The notes beneath the pieces were generated by a model. That model was not told the DNA's origin, made no database searches, and saw only the letters and a program-made list of their open reading frames with translations. From assembly GCA_014238055.1 (NCBI GenBank), contig JABABV010000005.1:1-57299 (forward strand): a stretch of DNA of 57,299 nucleotides, read 5' to 3'. How positions within the stretch are numbered: position 1 is the stretch's first letter; every line of letters starts with the position of its first letter. A program made the position numbers and the translations under genes. Positions 20,793 through 31,451 of this stretch are shown here, piece by piece. This DNA is from Mycoplasmatales bacterium. GTDB taxonomy: Bacteria; Bacillota_I; Bacilli_A; Mycoplasmatales; JABABV01.

Positions 20793-21197
20793 TTAATATT
20801 TAATAATCACGGCAGTTCCATAAGCAAAGAAATTAACAAATCCTTGAACGTTATCAACATCAATTCTAAAACTGATAACAGCATTAGCGCCAACTGCGGC
20901 AGCTTTTTCGCGAATTTCTTCAATAATTTTAGCACGATTCATTTTCATTAATTTAATTTGCCCTTGCAAACGGCCACCGACTAAACTTTTTAGTCCTGAT
21001 CCAATTGTACTGAACACATTACGACTAACGACTAATGTTGCTGTCACTAGTTCAACGTATTTAACTGTTTTGGCATCGTGTATAAATCCTGTAGTTAGCA
21101 ATTCAACATCACTTGGGTTTTTAACAATTACTTTACGATTTTTAGTATCTAATTTATCAATTTTAACAGGTGTTTTTTTATCTTGCACTTTATCCAT
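20793..21197 (-). CDS. UPF0145/YbjQ-family protein, copy 1
   Basis: The product is 134 residues. The YbjQ-type core is clear from about 33: LLTTGFIHDAKTVKYVELVTATLVVSRNVFSTIGSG, then GGRLQGQIKLM and GANAVISFRIDVDNV, ending FFAYGTAVIIKY. Family members form small oligomeric barrels sometimes called heavy-metal-binding, but no biochemical role is established. Compared with the copy at 21351-21686 this one has a 32-residue Lys-rich N-terminal extension. ATG follows AAGGAG. The two copies lie head to tail downstream of phoU, with a terminator between them. Confidence 0.85.
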   Translation of the reverse strand: MDKVQDKKTPVKIDKLDTKNRKVIVKNPSDVELLTTGFIHDAKTVKYVELVTATLVVSRNVFSTIGSGLKSLVGGRLQGQIKLMKMNRAKIIEEIREKAAAVGANAVISFRIDVDNVQGFVNFFAYGTAVIIKY

Positions 21198-21350: not shown

Positions 21351-21686
21351 TTATTTAATTAAAACAGCTGTTGCATAACCGAAAAAGTTCATAACACCGT
21401 TAACATCATCAACATCAATTCGTAATCCGACAACAGCATTAGCTCCTTGTTGGAACGCTTTGTTACGAATTTCTCCTAAAAGTTGTGAACGATAATTTTC
21501 CATTAATTTAATTTGACCTTCTAAACGGCCTCCGATGATACTTTTAAATCCTGAACCCATCGTACTAAACATATTACGACTCACGACTAAAGAAGAACTA
21601 ACAAAGTTAACATATTCAACTGATTTAGCTCCTTGAACAACACCGGTAGTAAAAATTTTCACTTGGCTTGCGCTAGTAATATTCAT
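21351..21686 (-). CDS. UPF0145/YbjQ-family protein, copy 2
   Basis: The product is 111 residues, the normal family length. It contains the conserved VVQGAKSVEYVNFVSSSLVVSRNMFSTMGSG-type N-terminal half, GGRLEGQIKLM and GANAVVGLRIDVDDV. It is clearly paralogous to the neighbouring 134-residue protein. It starts 45 bases after the phoU stop with no terminator in between, so it is probably the last gene of the phosphate operon. A link to phosphate is only suggested by position. The function of the family is unknown. Confidence 0.88.
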   Translation of the reverse strand: MNITSASQVKIFTTGVVQGAKSVEYVNFVSSSLVVSRNMFSTMGSGFKSIIGGRLEGQIKLMENYRSQLLGEIRNKAFQQGANAVVGLRIDVDDVNGVMNFFGYATAVLIK

Positions 21687-21731: not shown

Positions 21732-22415
21732 CTATTCTAACACATTATTTCAAACGTCAATTCTTTTTCCAGTTGAAATATAATAAAACGATTCACAAAT
21801 ACTAGTAACGTGATCGCCAATTCTTTCAACAGCACGGAGAGCAATAATTAGTTTTACGCGTCTTTCAACGGCATTATTATCAGTTAAACTAATTTTTAAT
21901 TTAATTGCTTGTTTTAAAGCTTTTTTATATTCAGCATCAACTAAATCATCAGCTTCTACTAATTGACGGACTTTTTCTTGATCTTCATTTAATAAAACTT
22001 TTTCTAAATCGGCTAAATTTTTGAAAGCGGAACGGAATGCTTTATTAATAATTGCAATATATTTTGGATATTCATTAAAATTAATAATAAAGAAAGCGAT
22101 CGTTGAGGCATAATTACCTAAGCGTTCTAACGATTTAGCAATTTGAGCATAAGATAACGTACGACGTAAATCTTTTCCAACTGGATTTTGAGCAAAAACA
22201 AATGCGACATCATCTAATAAACTATTATAAATACGATGTAATTCTAAACGATTACGTAATACTTTACTTGAAAGTTCATTTGATTGCAGACTTTTATTAC
22301 TATTTAGTGATTTTTTAATTAAAGTATGTTCGTTTAAAATTAATTCGTAAAAATCAATAATCAATGATTTTAATTCACGGACATTACTATTAATAATTGT
22401 TACTTTTTTATCCAT
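21732..22415 (-). CDS. phoU: Phosphate transport regulator PhoU
   Basis: The product is 227 residues, the usual PhoU size. It is all-helical with the two repeated three-helix modules; the E/D-rich signature sequences are visible (ERLGNYASTIAFFI near 117 and AVERIGDHVTSICE near 205). PhoU restrains the Pst transporter and, where present, its histidine kinase. I chose the ATG at 22413-22415 because GGAGGA sits about 8 bases upstream; an in-frame ATG at 22430 would include that site inside the coding region. The last residues follow a TGA-encoded Trp and the stop is TAG. It follows pstB by 23 bases. Confidence 0.93.
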
Positions 22416-22438
22416 TATCATTTCCTCCATTTTGTCAT

Positions 22439-23221
22439 TTATCCTTGACGACCTCTAATATAATTATCAGTTCGTTTATCTTTAGGACCAGTAAAGATTT
22501 TTTTAGTTTTTCCTGATTCAATTAATTCTCCTAAATAGAAGAAAGCTGCTTTATCAGAAATACGCGCTGCTTGTTGCATTGAATGCGTTACGATAACGAT
22601 CGTATAATTACGTTTTAATTCTAAAATTAATTGTTCAATTTTTTTAGTAGCGATTGGATCTAGTGCTGAAGTTGGTTCATCCATTAATAATACTTCTGGA
22701 CGCATCGTGATCGCTCTAGCGATACATAAACGTTGTTGTTGTCCACCAGATAACTCTAATGCTGAATGATTCATAATATCTTTAACTTCATCTCATAGAG
22801 CCGCTCCAATTAATGCTTCTTCTACTAATTTATCAAGTTCTTGTTTCTTTTTAATTCCATGAGCACGCGGACCGAAAGCGACGTTATCATAAATCGACAT
22901 TGGGAAGGGATTTGGTTTTTGGAAAACCATTCCTACTCGAGTACGCAATTCAATAACACTTTGTTTTTTATGATAAATGTTTTCGCTATCAAGATTGATC
23001 AAACCTTTAATTTTAATTCCTGGAATCGTATCGTTCATACGATTAAGACATCTTAAGAAAGTTGACTTTCCACAACCAGAAGGACCAATTAAAGAAATAA
23101 CTTCTTTTTTAAAAATATCGATATTGATATTTTTTAAAGCTTGCTTTTCACCATTTTTATATCAAAAGCTTAAATCTTTAACTTCAAAAATAACTTTTTT
23201 CGTTGTTTTTTCTTTTGCCAT
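22439..23221 (-). CDS. pstB: Phosphate ABC transporter ATP-binding protein
   Basis: The product is 260 residues. The Walker A motif GPSGCGKST is at 46-54, the signature LSGGQQQR at 157-164 and Walker B LLMDEP at 178-183, followed by the switch His in [13 protein letters not shown]. The PstB-specific [23 protein letters not shown] region confirms the assignment. It powers phosphate uptake with the fused permease PstCA and binding protein PstS. The ATG has GGATGAG upstream. It lies 16 bases after the pstCA stop in the order pstS-pstCA-pstB-phoU. Confidence 0.97.
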
Positions 23222-23237: not shown

Positions 23238-25301
23238 CTATTGTTGTAATTTATTCGTTTTTTGATCGATGATGATTACGTCATCAGTTTTTATTTTTTT
23301 ATTTTTATTTTTGATTTTTTTGAAAAATTCTAAAATCGTTGTGTAATGGTGGGCAATCAAAGTGATTGCTAAGACAAATATATAAGTAACTAATGCTGAA
23401 CTATAAGCATACGATAGCGCTACTTTAGAACTAAAAGTTGAATAAATTGCATAATACAACATTCGTGAAGTTAACGTTTGTCCTGAATCTCAAATACCAA
23501 CTTTATGAGCAATCATTCCAACTGTTAAATAAACTGGCGCTGTTTCTGAAAGAATTCTTCCGATTGATAATAAAGTCCCACTAATAATTCCCGTCATCGC
23601 GTTAGGGATAACGATTTTATTAATCGTTTCTCATTTACCTGCACCTAACGCATAAGACGCTAGACGGAGATCTTCTGGCACAGTTTTTAAAGCACCTTCA
23701 ATACTAATCGTTAACATTGGTAAAATAACAATTGTCATCGTAAATCCACCAGCTAATAGAGAACCAGTATCGGAATGGCCTAAATGTAATGTTTGTAAAA
23801 AGAAGATTAGTCCAAACATTCCAAAAAGAATTGAAGGAATTCCCCCTAGTGAATTAATGAAGAAACGAATTATTTTAATAATATGTTTATTCGTAGCAAA
23901 TTCATTTAAATAAATTGCTGTTCCGATCGCTAATGGTAAGGCGCAAAAGATACTAATTACGATAAGGAGCATCGTTACTCCAAGAACTTTTCCTAAATCG
24001 TGTTGTCCTGGTTCTGAAAAACCATAATTAGATAATCCTTTTATCCCCATAACTATAATATCTAATGATATTCATAAAACAAAGATAATAATAATACTAA
24101 AACAAATTATTTCTAAAGCAAATCTTAAATGATCGCTAATACGACGGCGATTATGTTTCGCTTGACGACGCATATATAAGAAAACATTTTCTTTTTTACG
24201 TAACGGTGACGTTATTAAATTAAGGCCTTCTTCAATAAATAAAAGTGTCCGTTTTAATAAATAGTTAATTCATTGAATTAAGAATGAAAATGGCATCGTT
24301 AAATAATGTTTCGTTTGTTGATAAATATTTACTTTAATAGCTTGACCGTTTTTGTCGATCTCAACTGGTAATTTTCAATTTAATTTTTTATGTGAAAATT
24401 TTAAAGTAAATATAATATTAAAAATCATAATAATTATAAACAAAGAAATTCCGGCTGCGAAAAGACCACTTTTACTACTTCCAGAATCAGAACCCATGTA
24501 GTAAGCGATATTTCCTCCTAAAGTATTTAAAGACGACGTAAAGACCCCGAAAATACCATGTCCGTGTAATTGACCGATGTTAGAACCAGAAAGAATTAAT
24601 GATACTGCCATCGTTTCCCCGATCGCTCTTCCAGTTGCAATAATAACGGCGCGTTTTATACCTGGTTTTAATAGTTTCTTAATAACGTGGTAGATTGAAT
24701 AAGTTTTTGAATTACCAAGCGCTAATGTATTATCTAAATAATATTTAGGAATAACATTTAGATAATTATAAATAAAAGAAACTAAAATTGGTAAAACCAT
24801 AAAGACTAACATAATCGAAGCAGTTAAAACGTTACTGCTATATTGAAAGTGAAAAATTAATTGTAATAATTTTCCAATTCCTGTTAAAGCAAACAGACCG
24901 AAAATAATTGAAGGAATCCCTGCTAATATTTCGATAAAGACTCGTAATGTTTTCGTAAATGACTTAATTCGATATTTTAGAAAAATACTCGTTCTAATCG
25001 CCATCGGTACAGCAATAAGAATAGCAGTTCCTGTAGTTACGAAAGTAATGAATAAAGGTCCTCAAATTCCATATTGATTATTAGTTGGATCAAAAGTAGA
25101 TGATAAAAAGATACTCTTAAAACCTTGATCTTTAATCGCTGGTAATGCTTTAATGAAAATAAAAGAAAAAATTAATAACAGCATGCTCGCTAGAAAAATG
25201 GCAATTGCATTAGAACTATATTTAGCAATTTTATCATTTAAAACTTTACGATTAGATAAGTTTTTAATTTCAGTTTTAGAATTATGATTTTTTTTACTCA
25301 T
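23238..25301 (-). CDS. pstA: Fused phosphate ABC permease PstC-PstA
   Basis: The product is 687 residues and carries both permease subunits in one chain. The PstC-like half (about 1-310) has its own six-helix core with the EAA-type loop (LALGNSKTYSIYHVIKKLLKPGI) and a GETMAV segment. A cytosolic linker (about 310-400, ending in RRQAKHNRRRIS) leads to the PstA-like half with TLHLGHSDTGSL and SYALGAGKWETINKIVIPNAMTGI. The frame is continuous through all TGA codons, so this is a true fusion, as known from Mycoplasma genitalium and pneumoniae. The ATG is preceded by GGCGAGGATTACT. It lies 18 bases after pstS. Confidence 0.95.
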
Positions 25302-25319: not shown

Positions 25320-26417
25320 CTATGGTTTTATTCCAAAAGCATATTTCTGATATTTATAATAACTATCTTTAGCAGTAGCGTTATGTAACATAACATCGCT
25401 ATAATGAGCTTGCAACGTTGCGATTTGATCATCGATTTCTTGATCAGTTAATAATACGTAATGATCTTTTGCAACAATTGAATTATTTTTATTATTTTTT
25501 TGATCGTTTAGAACAAAGGTTACGAAACCGATAATTCAATTGATATGTTTATTGTTAAATGAAAAAGCAGTATTAAACGGTCTGACTCATTGATAGATGC
25601 CTGATTGAGCATTATTAATCGTAGCAATCATTGTTGCTTCTTTACCATCTTTTTGATAACCATAGATATTACTTACTTTAATTGAACTTGAACTATTTAC
25701 TAAAGCAAATCCTAAAGATAAATAAGTAATTGAACCACTAACATCGCTTAGTTTACTTAAAGCTTGTGAATTAGCTTCGTTAGTAGTAATAATATTATTA
25801 TGATTATGATTTTTATCAGCAGTTGTAAAATTTACTTTTGATAAATTACTTAAACCGTTAAAGAAAGCTTCACTAGTTCCGCTAGTAGCGCTTCCTCCTG
25901 ATCGACCTAAAGGAATTATATCAGTACTATTATCATCGCTAGCTCAACTATTTTTTAATAATTGTGCTCAACTGATTTTATTACCTTTATATAAACTAGC
26001 TAACGCAGTTGCGTTCATAATAGGAGCATCATTTCCTTTATCACGTAATTCTTTAGGTAAATTAATCATCATTGCAATAGCATCTTTATTTAATGTAATT
26101 GTACGGTCTTTGTTAGTCGTTCAATTAGCTAAATTACTTTTATTGCTTAAGATGTCATGACTTTTATCACTCGACATGTTTCCTAAATCGGAATGGTTAT
26201 GAATCGTATCATCTAAACCTTTTCCAGAACCACCACTATTAACGTTAACTAAGATTTTTTTATCGTTAAAATATTTGTTTGAATAATCTTTCATTACTGG
26301 TAAAACAGAAGAAGATCCTGTTGCTGCTAATTCATTTAAATTGGAGCTTCATAAAAACATACAACAAAAAGCTAAACCAATTCCTAAAGATAATCATCAA
26401 TATAAAATCTTGCGCAT
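25320..26417 (-). CDS. pstS: Phosphate-binding lipoprotein PstS
   Basis: The product is 365 residues. The N-terminus has a hydrophobic signal with LAFCC, Cys18 or Cys19 being the likely lipidation site. The phosphate-binding elements follow: ATGSSSVLPVM, NSGGSGKGLDD and RSGGSATSGTSEAFF, typical of PstS. It captures phosphate at the outer face and delivers it to PstCA-PstB. The ATG has AAGGTGG upstream. It opens the pst operon; a TTGTAA-17-TTTAAT promoter and an array of TTAAxA hexamers lie directly upstream. Confidence 0.93.
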
Positions 26418-26502: not shown

Positions 26503-26528
26503 TATTAACAAATGTTAATATATTTTAA
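26503..26528 (-). promoter_or_regulatory. Pho-box-like hexamer array upstream of pstS
   Basis: On the minus strand TTAAAA, TTAACA and TTAATA follow one another with exactly 4-base spacers (10-bp period), ending 26 bases upstream of the probable -35 box. PhoP of Bacillus subtilis binds direct TT(A/C/T)A(C/T)A repeats with similar short spacers before pstS. The same segment is also a palindrome (ATATTAACA-AA-TGTTAATAT, 26502-26521). The AT-rich background makes chance a real alternative. Confidence 0.4.
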
Positions 26529-26532
26529 CACT

Positions 26533-27720: not shown

Positions 27721-28392
27721 TTATTTTAAGATAAAACCTTTTCCGTGAACTGATAAAATGTAGCTATTTGACAATTTTTGTCGAAGTCTAAAAATATATT
27801 GAGTGACGATTCTAGAGTTATCATCATCGTAACCTCAAATTTTATCGAGAATAATTTCTTTCGAAACGAATTCACCAACATGATTCATTAAAATTTTTAA
27901 AACTTTAAATTCTGTGTTCGATAAACTAATTTCTTTATTATTTAAAAAACAAGTTTGATTTATTAAATCAAGACGTAAGTCTTTATAAAATAATTCAGTG
28001 TCTTTTGAATATTTCTCTGATTTACGACGTAAAATATTACGAATTTTAGCTAAAATATAATTATCGGAATTATCTTTTGCTAAAATGTAATCGATCGTTT
28101 TATTAGAAATTTTAGTAGCTTGATTTTCAGAAAATGATTTAGTGAAATACAAGGAGTGCGCATGTAAATTACGTTCACGTAATTCATTAAATCAAGAATT
28201 AGTAATTATTTTTAAGTCAGTTCATTCAAAAATAATCAAATGAACTTTCTTACTAACTACTTCAGATAATTCCTCACTAGTTATAAAATTAAAATTAACT
28301 TTATAATAAGGTTTTATTTTTTTCAATAATGATTTAACACGACTATCGCCTGGACTATCATTAACTATTCAAATTTGTGCTTTTATTTTCAT
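27721..28392 (-). CDS. OmpR/PhoB-type response regulator with a degenerate receiver
   Basis: The product is 223 residues. Residues 1-122 have the receiver-domain pattern: first strand IWIV followed by Asn11-Asp12 in place of the acidic pair, Thr84 (LYFT) and Lys106 (YILAK) in the switch positions. The phospho-acceptor site reads IIFEW, with Glu56 where Asp is expected. Residues 136-223 are a standard winged-helix domain (LSNTEFKVLKILMN ... IFRLRQKL ... HGKGFIL). No histidine kinase gene is in the window. Most mycoplasmas lack two-component genes, although M. penetrans was reported to have a system. The gene lies 15 bases after crr, so it may be co-transcribed with it. It may bind DNA without phosphorylation. 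Confidence 0.85.
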
Positions 28393-28407: not shown

Positions 28408-28887
28408 TTATGATTTAATACTAAAGATTGGATCACCGATTTTAACGTCACCCATTTTTAAGATTTCAATTTTACTTGAACCTAAAGTGTCGCTAGTTAC
28501 TACGATTGGCGAAGTTGTAGTTGTAGCCATTTTTTTAACTAATGCTAAATCTACAATTGCTAAAGGATCTCCCGCTTTAACTACGTCTCCTTGTTTAACT
28601 TTCTTTTCGAAACCTTTTCCTTCCATAGAAACAGTTTCTAAACCAATATGTAAAAGAATGTTGAATCCTTTTTTATGTTTGATTCCATAAGCATGTCCAC
28701 TTGGAAATACAGCTTGTAAGCTTCCTGCAACTGGTGCAACAAAATTTCCGTCTTCCGGAATAATTGCTACTCCATCACCGATAATACGATCTGAAAATAC
28801 TTGATCTGGTACTTCTGATAAGTTAACGATTTTTCCATTAACTGGTGCATATATTATTACTTCTTTTTTACGTGAGAATAGTCCCAT
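28408..28887 (-). CDS. crr: Glucose-type PTS enzyme IIA
   Basis: The product is 159 residues, the usual EIIA-Glc length. The active-site His80 lies in NILLHIGLETV and the supporting His65 in PSGHAYGI. It passes phosphate from HPr to the EIIB domain of PtsG. It is a separate cytosolic protein here, matching the lack of an EIIA domain in PtsG. The ATG follows a GGGGG site. A TATAAT box (near 28921) gives it its own promoter, and ptsG, upstream on the strand, ends in a strong terminator. The OmpR-type regulator gene follows closely. Confidence 0.96.
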   Translation of the reverse strand: MGLFSRKKEVIIYAPVNGKIVNLSEVPDQVFSDRIIGDGVAIIPEDGNFVAPVAGSLQAVFPSGHAYGIKHKKGFNILLHIGLETVSMEGKGFEKKVKQGDVVKAGDPLAIVDLALVKKMATTTTSPIVVTSDTLGSSKIEILKMGDVKIGDPIFSIKS

Positions 28888-29043
28888 AGTAAAAACCCCC
28901 TTGTTATTATTTAACTATTTTATTATAACAACTTTTTTAAAATTGTAAAACAAAAAAATATAAAATTAATTTTTATGTTTTTTATCTATTTTTAAATTTG
29001 TTTTTTTAGACTATTATAATTCTATTTTTAAGCTATTAAATTA

Positions 29044-31109: not shown

Positions 31110-31451
31110 TTATAATGTTGTTAATGAAGAAACGGCAATTATTATTGATAAAATTCCACAAATAATTGCAAAACTAGGTTGTCCTTTAGCAAAGAAATTC
31201 ATTTCTTTATCAGCTTCTAGACTAACTGATTTTTTACGTTCTGCTGAAAAACGTTTTTTATAATCAGCATGATTCCCAACTAATCCATCACGAAGATTAA
31301 ATTTTTTAATAATTTGGGCTTTACGTAATTTTAATTTTCTACTTGAATTTAAATATCAATATAAAGAAAGTAAGGCAAAAATAATCATTACAAAAAATGA
31401 AATAACTGCTACTCAATCAACAGTTCAAGTTCCAAAAAGATTATTTAACAT
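31110..31451 (-). CDS. Small two-helix membrane protein overlapping ptsI
   Basis: The product is 113 residues. Hydrophobic segments lie at about 13-33 and 93-112, with a basic central loop (SSRKLKLRKAQIIKKF ...) that is probably cytosolic. The ATG (31449-31451) lies just before the ptsI stop and overlaps it by 7 bases, so translation is coupled. This links it to the PTS, perhaps as a membrane tether or regulator for enzyme I, but that is inference. I know no named family. The transcript ends at the palindrome directly after its stop. Confidence 0.7.

Follow-up and report, generated by a model that had tools for sequence, protein, structure and literature searches.

Known phosphate-responsive and atypical response regulators

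The closest described counterpart of the regulator considered here is the PhoR–PhoB (PhoP) two-component system, with which it shares the OmpR/PhoB architecture, a gene position beside pstSCAB-phoU and PhoB as the best NCBIfam match. A complete phoB-phoR-pst locus is found in two genomes of the same order, the Mycoplasmatales. The present regulator differs in lacking PhoR, in its broken acidic pair, in the glutamate at its phospho-acceptor site and in scoring far under the PhoB equivalog cut-off. A second set of comparable proteins comprises the atypical regulators ChxR, HP1043 and RitR, which likewise combine a receiver fold devoid of phosphotransfer residues with an orphan gene and, by prediction in our case, phosphorylation-independent DNA binding; ChxR additionally has a glutamate at the acceptor site. 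To our knowledge, none of the three is linked to pst, and it is the gene position and lost kinase that set the present regulator apart from them by indicating its ancestry. Inverted repeats are bound by HP1043 (PMC3960148), and the palindrome at pstS described below would require the same of our regulator.

Pseudo-receivers are common, and how they are switched in bacteria has been described as a mystery (PMC12632262). A 2015 survey names the Mollicutes as one of five classes that lack aspartate-less receivers (PMC4395418), a 2020 study records almost all Mycoplasmatales as lacking ompR, and OmpR and PhoB go unmentioned in a study of how transcription is controlled in Mollicutes. Pseudo-receivers of the OmpR/PhoB family are already known, and we found no description in the open-access literature of a kinase-less, PhoB-derived case in mycoplasmas. 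Here we analyze such a candidate, encoded in a stretch of 57,299 nucleotides of a Mycoplasmatales bacterium (contig JABABV010000005.1 of assembly GCA_014238055.1; hereinafter the window).

Domain architecture of the regulator

The regulator gene, for which the sequence-only reading discussed below gave no strand, lies on the minus strand and is an ATG-initiated open reading frame of 223 codons that requires genetic code 4, with four TGA codons read as tryptophan (Table 1). Its product matches the Pfam Trans_reg_C model over residues 153–222 with 68.2 bits (cut-off 26.2). The Pfam receiver model gives no match to the protein, and a receiver-model search of the source genome found nothing; for the N-terminal half, homology is therefore supported by the alignment and the predicted structure instead. 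An AlphaFold2 model computed from 31 aligned sequences of the order displays a receiver fold (pLDDT 91.9, pTM 0.70), and Foldseek gives only OmpR/PhoB response regulators as its best matches over the full length (E about 1e-14), with the atypical HP1043 and RitR among the matches. A C-terminal winged helix joined to an N-terminal receiver fold is the defining make-up of the OmpR/PhoB family, and an initial sequence-only reading had correctly assigned the orphan regulator to it. Against the PhoB equivalog model TIGR02154, its best NCBIfam match, it reaches 75.2 bits, short of the cut-off of 296.2.

Table 1. Features of the regulator gene and its surroundings (window coordinates).
Feature	Position	Strand	Basis
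phoU	21732..22430	-	PhoU, 77 bits
pstB ATPase	22439..23221	-	ABC_tran, 108 bits
pstC-pstA fusion permease	23238..25301	-	BPD_transp_1, two stretches
pstS-like phosphate-binding lipoprotein, predicted target	25320..26417	-	pst operon position, homology to related pstS; no Pfam match over cut-off
Conserved 25-bp element TGTTAAAATATATTAACATTTGTTA, candidate operator upstream of pstS	26506..26530	-	shared leader element
Regulator CDS, 223 aa, pseudo-receiver plus winged helix	27721..28392	-	ORF, Trans_reg_C, model, Foldseek
Trans_reg_C winged-helix domain, residues 133–223	27724..27996	-	Pfam match and model
Pseudo-receiver domain, residues 1–124, (beta-alpha)5 fold	28021..28392	-	AlphaFold2 model, alignment
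Lys106 codon, active-site Lys kept; next residue Asp in place of Pro	28075..28077	-	alignment, model
Thr84 codon, switch Thr kept	28141..28143	-	alignment, model
Glu56 codon (GAA), phospho-acceptor position	28225..28227	-	alignment, model
Asn11-Asp12 codons, acidic pair with first acid lost	28357..28362	-	alignment with PhoB of E. coli and 18 canonical class relatives
crr (EIIA-Glc), 15 bp upstream of regulator	28408..28887	-	PTS_EIIA_1, 159 bits; spacing
Promoter-like TTTACA-16-TATAAT upstream of crr, TG before second hexamer	28922..28949	-	consensus match only, 11/12

Degeneration of the receiver and its spread across the order

The receiver was aligned with PhoB of E. coli, 18 canonical relatives from the class and 34 kinase-less sequences from the order, that of the window included. 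In the model, strands 3, 4 and 5 span residues 52–56, 79–84 and 102–105, such that Glu56 closes strand 3, Thr84 closes strand 4 and Lys106 lies just past strand 5; these residues therefore occupy the acceptor, threonine and lysine sites. In place of the canonical residue set the protein has N-D, E, T and K, making it an aspartate-less receiver with Glu56 replacing the acceptor aspartate in both alignment and model. The sequence-only reading had named precisely these residues (N11-D12, E56 in an IIFEW motif, T84 and K106), and its placement of Glu56 at the acceptor position holds. Glu56 comes from the only genome of the window's family in the set compared, and one base error (GAA for GAT or GAC) could create it. 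On the alignment and the model, the domain is most likely a pseudo-receiver unable to take phosphate in the normal way.

Across the order, the OmpR-type domain (Trans_reg_C) is found over the cut-off in 32 of 320 genomes. The earlier suggestion that such a transcription factor would be unusual in this group, with M. penetrans as the exception, was thus too strong, as M. penetrans does not stand alone. All 18 class relatives carry the acidic pair, the aspartate, the Thr/Ser and the lysine, whereas none of the 34 kinase-less order sequences retains both acids of the pair. The acceptor position in the latter is occupied by Asp in 24, Glu in four, Ser in three, and His, Trp and Thr in one each, the glutamates other than that of the window being those of G246, G248 and G094. 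With Asp12, Thr84 and Lys106 all kept, the window regulator is among the less altered members. As judged from the alignment, loss of the acidic pair is general in the kinase-less regulators of the order and glutamate at the acceptor site is a minority outcome. Since the pair is lost alike where the acceptor is Asp, Ser, His, Trp or Thr, the glutamate is not what makes the group phosphorylation-free.

In a phylogenetic tree, a moderately supported branch (86/96) sets off all 34 order relatives and leaves the PhoB of G001 outside. Among them, a pst-linked group from the f3 genomes (100/99) is separate from a 29-member group holding the window sequence (100/99), suggesting that the glutamate in each may have a separate origin. 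In three pairs of relatives, dN/dS of the pseudo-receiver is 0.014–0.048, indicating that these domains are not decaying and are under purifying selection.

These data bear on whether Glu56 acts as a permanent mimic of phospho-aspartate, with Thr84 and Lys106 closing on it, the regulator locked on and pst constitutively activated. Phosphomimicry by Glu56 is plausible: both switch residues are kept around a glutamate that alignment and model place at the acceptor position, the three relatives named above share it, and Asp-to-Glu replacements activate some regulators (PMC4395418, PMC12632262). However, most kinase-less relatives have an aspartate there and others Ser, His, Trp or Thr, and the activity of ChxR is not abolished on replacing its glutamate (PMC4395418). 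We accordingly regard a locked-on regulator as possible and rather unlikely. Of the two parts of the sequence-only proposal, kinase-independence remains probable, given the orphan gene, the glutamate at the acceptor site and the lack of a kinase, whereas locking by Glu56 is not established in light of the relatives' residues and of ChxR.

Degenerate OmpR-like regulators also occur in other genomic contexts. In G017, one lies directly after sua5-rpiB (L044:7537-8259); like that of the window, it belongs to the same order, has Trans_reg_C and a degenerate receiver and comes from a genome without HisKA, but it is linked to sua5-rpiB rather than pst, retains the acceptor aspartate and is only 22% identical. 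As the G017 genome gives no HisKA match and just two HATPase_c matches, a "two-component system" in G017 may lack its kinase. A second degenerate group has smc on one side and a KtrAB-like potassium uptake pair on the other (L050 and L051, from G159 and G043), and in M. marinum (L085) its member adjoins ktrAB alone; this group may be a potassium-linked counterpart. A third is found in about ten genomes of genus g32 (L076–L084) beside divergent recO-like and glucose-6-phosphate-isomerase-like genes. Outside these, two Paenibacillaceae proteins recovered via their winged helix (L160, L161) have an N-terminal half that, by eye, apparently lacks the receiver aspartate.

Absence of a detectable histidine kinase

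The source assembly (845,282 bases, 96.7% complete) yields no match to HisKA and two to HATPase_c, which are ParE and GyrB only, bearing out the earlier remark that no kinase is near and extending it to the assembly. A hidden histidine kinase was considered and rejected: no HisKA match exceeds the cut-off in the 320 genomes of the order (best 16.8 bits), and single-contig genomes, such as those of Ca. M. mahonii (G094) and G247, show the same lack of a match. The HATPase_c matches inspected were those of the source genome, G001 and G003 and four weak ones; the remaining strong matches, about two per genome, are taken to be GyrB and ParE. Of the 33 genomes that have an OmpR-type domain, only G001 and G003 show a HATPase_c match adjoining the regulator. 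The G001 match is weak (15.5 bits, and the same protein searched alone gives no Pfam match), but as it lies between phoB and pstS it is likely PhoR. That the same search caught this divergent kinase lends some weight to the absence elsewhere. Weak HATPase_c matches in g12 genomes were rejected as kinases, being away from the regulator and in long open reading frames that we read as MORC-like ATPases; two of these adjoin a CysH/DndC-like gene.

The regulator might nonetheless still be switched by modification: as has been suggested for other pseudo-receivers, its altered receiver could be acted on by a Ser/Thr kinase, by a small phosphodonor or by a ligand. The purifying selection on the pseudo-receivers of relatives and the presence of a Pkinase domain in the source genome and all seven relatives checked are in keeping with this. 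Yet the Pkinase gene is unlinked to the regulator, and we consider such switching doubtful, slightly more so than the locked-on state.

Genomic neighborhood

In the window the gene order is crr, regulator, tRNA-Leu, rbgA, pstS, with ptsG and ptsI farther upstream than crr and, on the regulator's strand, the pst-phoU genes some 1.3 kb downstream. The sequence-only reading had seen both flanks, the adjacent crr and the nearby pst genes, accurately; it undervalued the latter, as the pst neighborhood is the strongest clue to function. Ten genomes have the regulator beside pstS, pstCA (or pstC and pstA), pstB and phoU. In G001 and G003 the order is phoB, phoR, pstS, pstC, pstA, pstB, phoU, and the receiver residues are canonical; in eight pst-linked genomes, the source included, the regulator stands beside pst and no kinase is present there. 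Genomes of f3 have metG, regulator, pstS, and M. marinum (G091) and G093 have rpsL, rpsG, fusA, regulator, pstS. Thus, the pst side of the regulator is constant among the pst-linked loci and the other side varies. PhoU is present in 204 of the 320 genomes, far more widely than the regulator, and most PhoU-bearing lineages lack the latter, probably through loss.

The 15-bp spacing and shared strand suggest that the regulator is probably co-transcribed with crr. It could then be a PTS regulator of carbohydrate uptake, its closeness to pst being incidental, for which the promoter-like site before crr and the ptsG and ptsI genes upstream might also speak. Against this, the other pst-linked relatives examined have no crr nearby, the kinase-less ones having metG or rpsL-rpsG-fusA upstream, so that crr was discarded as a conserved neighbor; moreover, a conserved element lies at pstS, and inspection of the crr leader by eye showed none. 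We judge this alternative improbable.

Several other observations were made at these loci. In the window, two tandem similar small proteins, YbjQ-like by eye, are encoded just downstream of phoU (20793–21197 and 21351–21686), and a 113-residue membrane-like open reading frame without a Pfam match lies between ptsI and ptsG (31110–31451). The PhoB-like gene of G003 (L129:729-1373) is split across frames, with the receiver in one and the winged helix in another. In Ca. Mycoplasma mahonii, the closest pst-type relative (L140:1015-1704) adjoins lpd and fba rather than pst, and phosphonate/phosphate-type ABC transporter genes lie a few kb off.

A candidate operator upstream of pstS

In the leader of pstS, the window, M. 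marinum and G093 all carry the pattern TGTTA-N7-TTAAYA-N2-TGTTA in the same orientation, which in the window overlaps the palindrome TTAACA-N2-TGTTAA (26505–26518). Its start lies 113, 118 and 104 bases, respectively, from the pstS start codon, and its end 32, 34 and 34 bases from a -10-like hexamer. In the best shared 25-mer, 18 columns are identical, as against 13.2 +/- 0.8 in shuffled leaders (maximum 16; 0 of 300 as good), the element having first been spotted by eye and its width of 25 bp set afterwards. Exact matches to the pattern number eight, in seven of the 320 genomes, and four of these are in the pstS leaders of the source genome, M. marinum and G093, a count that is partly circular as these leaders supplied the pattern; the comparison with shuffled leaders and the nearly constant spacing are fairer measures. 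With sites from M. marinum only, a one-mismatch match is obtained in the 115-bp leader of the window, which is expected in 0.3–0.5% of such pieces.

The gene upstream of the element is rbgA in the window and the regulator in M. marinum and G093. We rejected a terminator as its identity on account of its short, A+T-rich stem and because, although the upstream gene differs, the element remains at pstS. TTAACA-N2-TGTTAA occurs exactly twice in the 845-kb source genome, in the pstS leader and inside a coding gene, and we accordingly propose no further targets or genome-wide regulon. An exact-pattern search did not find the element in the f3 genomes, which share a different hairpin-like sequence.

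That the gene is a decaying, functionless remnant is very improbable and largely refuted: the receiver residues and kinase are gone and the gene is missing from most of the order's PhoU-bearing genomes, but its reading frame is intact, the fold is predicted with high confidence, a conserved element stands at the pst promoter and dN/dS is far below 1 in the three pairs of relatives.

Proposed mode of action

We favor, as the probable reading, a PhoB-derived regulator with a pseudo-receiver that has lost PhoR and controls pst without phosphorylation. It builds on the observed degeneration of the receiver, the lack of a detectable kinase, the pst neighborhood, the conserved leader element and purifying selection in relatives. 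From these we infer DNA binding, the target, the direction of control and the input signal. The PhoR kinase would have been lost and the PhoB receiver turned into a pseudo-receiver; the regulator would then dimerize without phosphorylation, bind the candidate element and control the pst-phoU operon, activation being the likelier mode since the element is located immediately before the presumed -35 region. The input might be the amount of the regulator, via the apparent co-transcription with crr, which would couple its level to the uptake of sugar in the source organism only, or a partner, for instance PhoU, a PTS protein or the Ser/Thr kinase of the cell. Counting against control of pst are the tRNA and rbgA genes that separate the regulator from pstS in the window, and the palindromic form of the element, as such sites are less typical of the OmpR/PhoB family than direct repeats.

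More tentatively, we posit that in at least two clades of mycoplasmas a phosphate two-component system may have become a one-component system, losing PhoR and the receiver chemistry, keeping its place and operator at pst and acquiring a new signal.

Significance

The regulator qualifies two survey statements, namely that aspartate-less receivers are missing from the Mollicutes and that ompR is lacking in almost all Mycoplasmatales. As a single order of small genomes offers the canonical counterpart, the lost kinase and a likely operator for comparison, and M. marinum is an isolate, obtained from cephalopods according to a title cited in PMC10449156, the question is a testable one.
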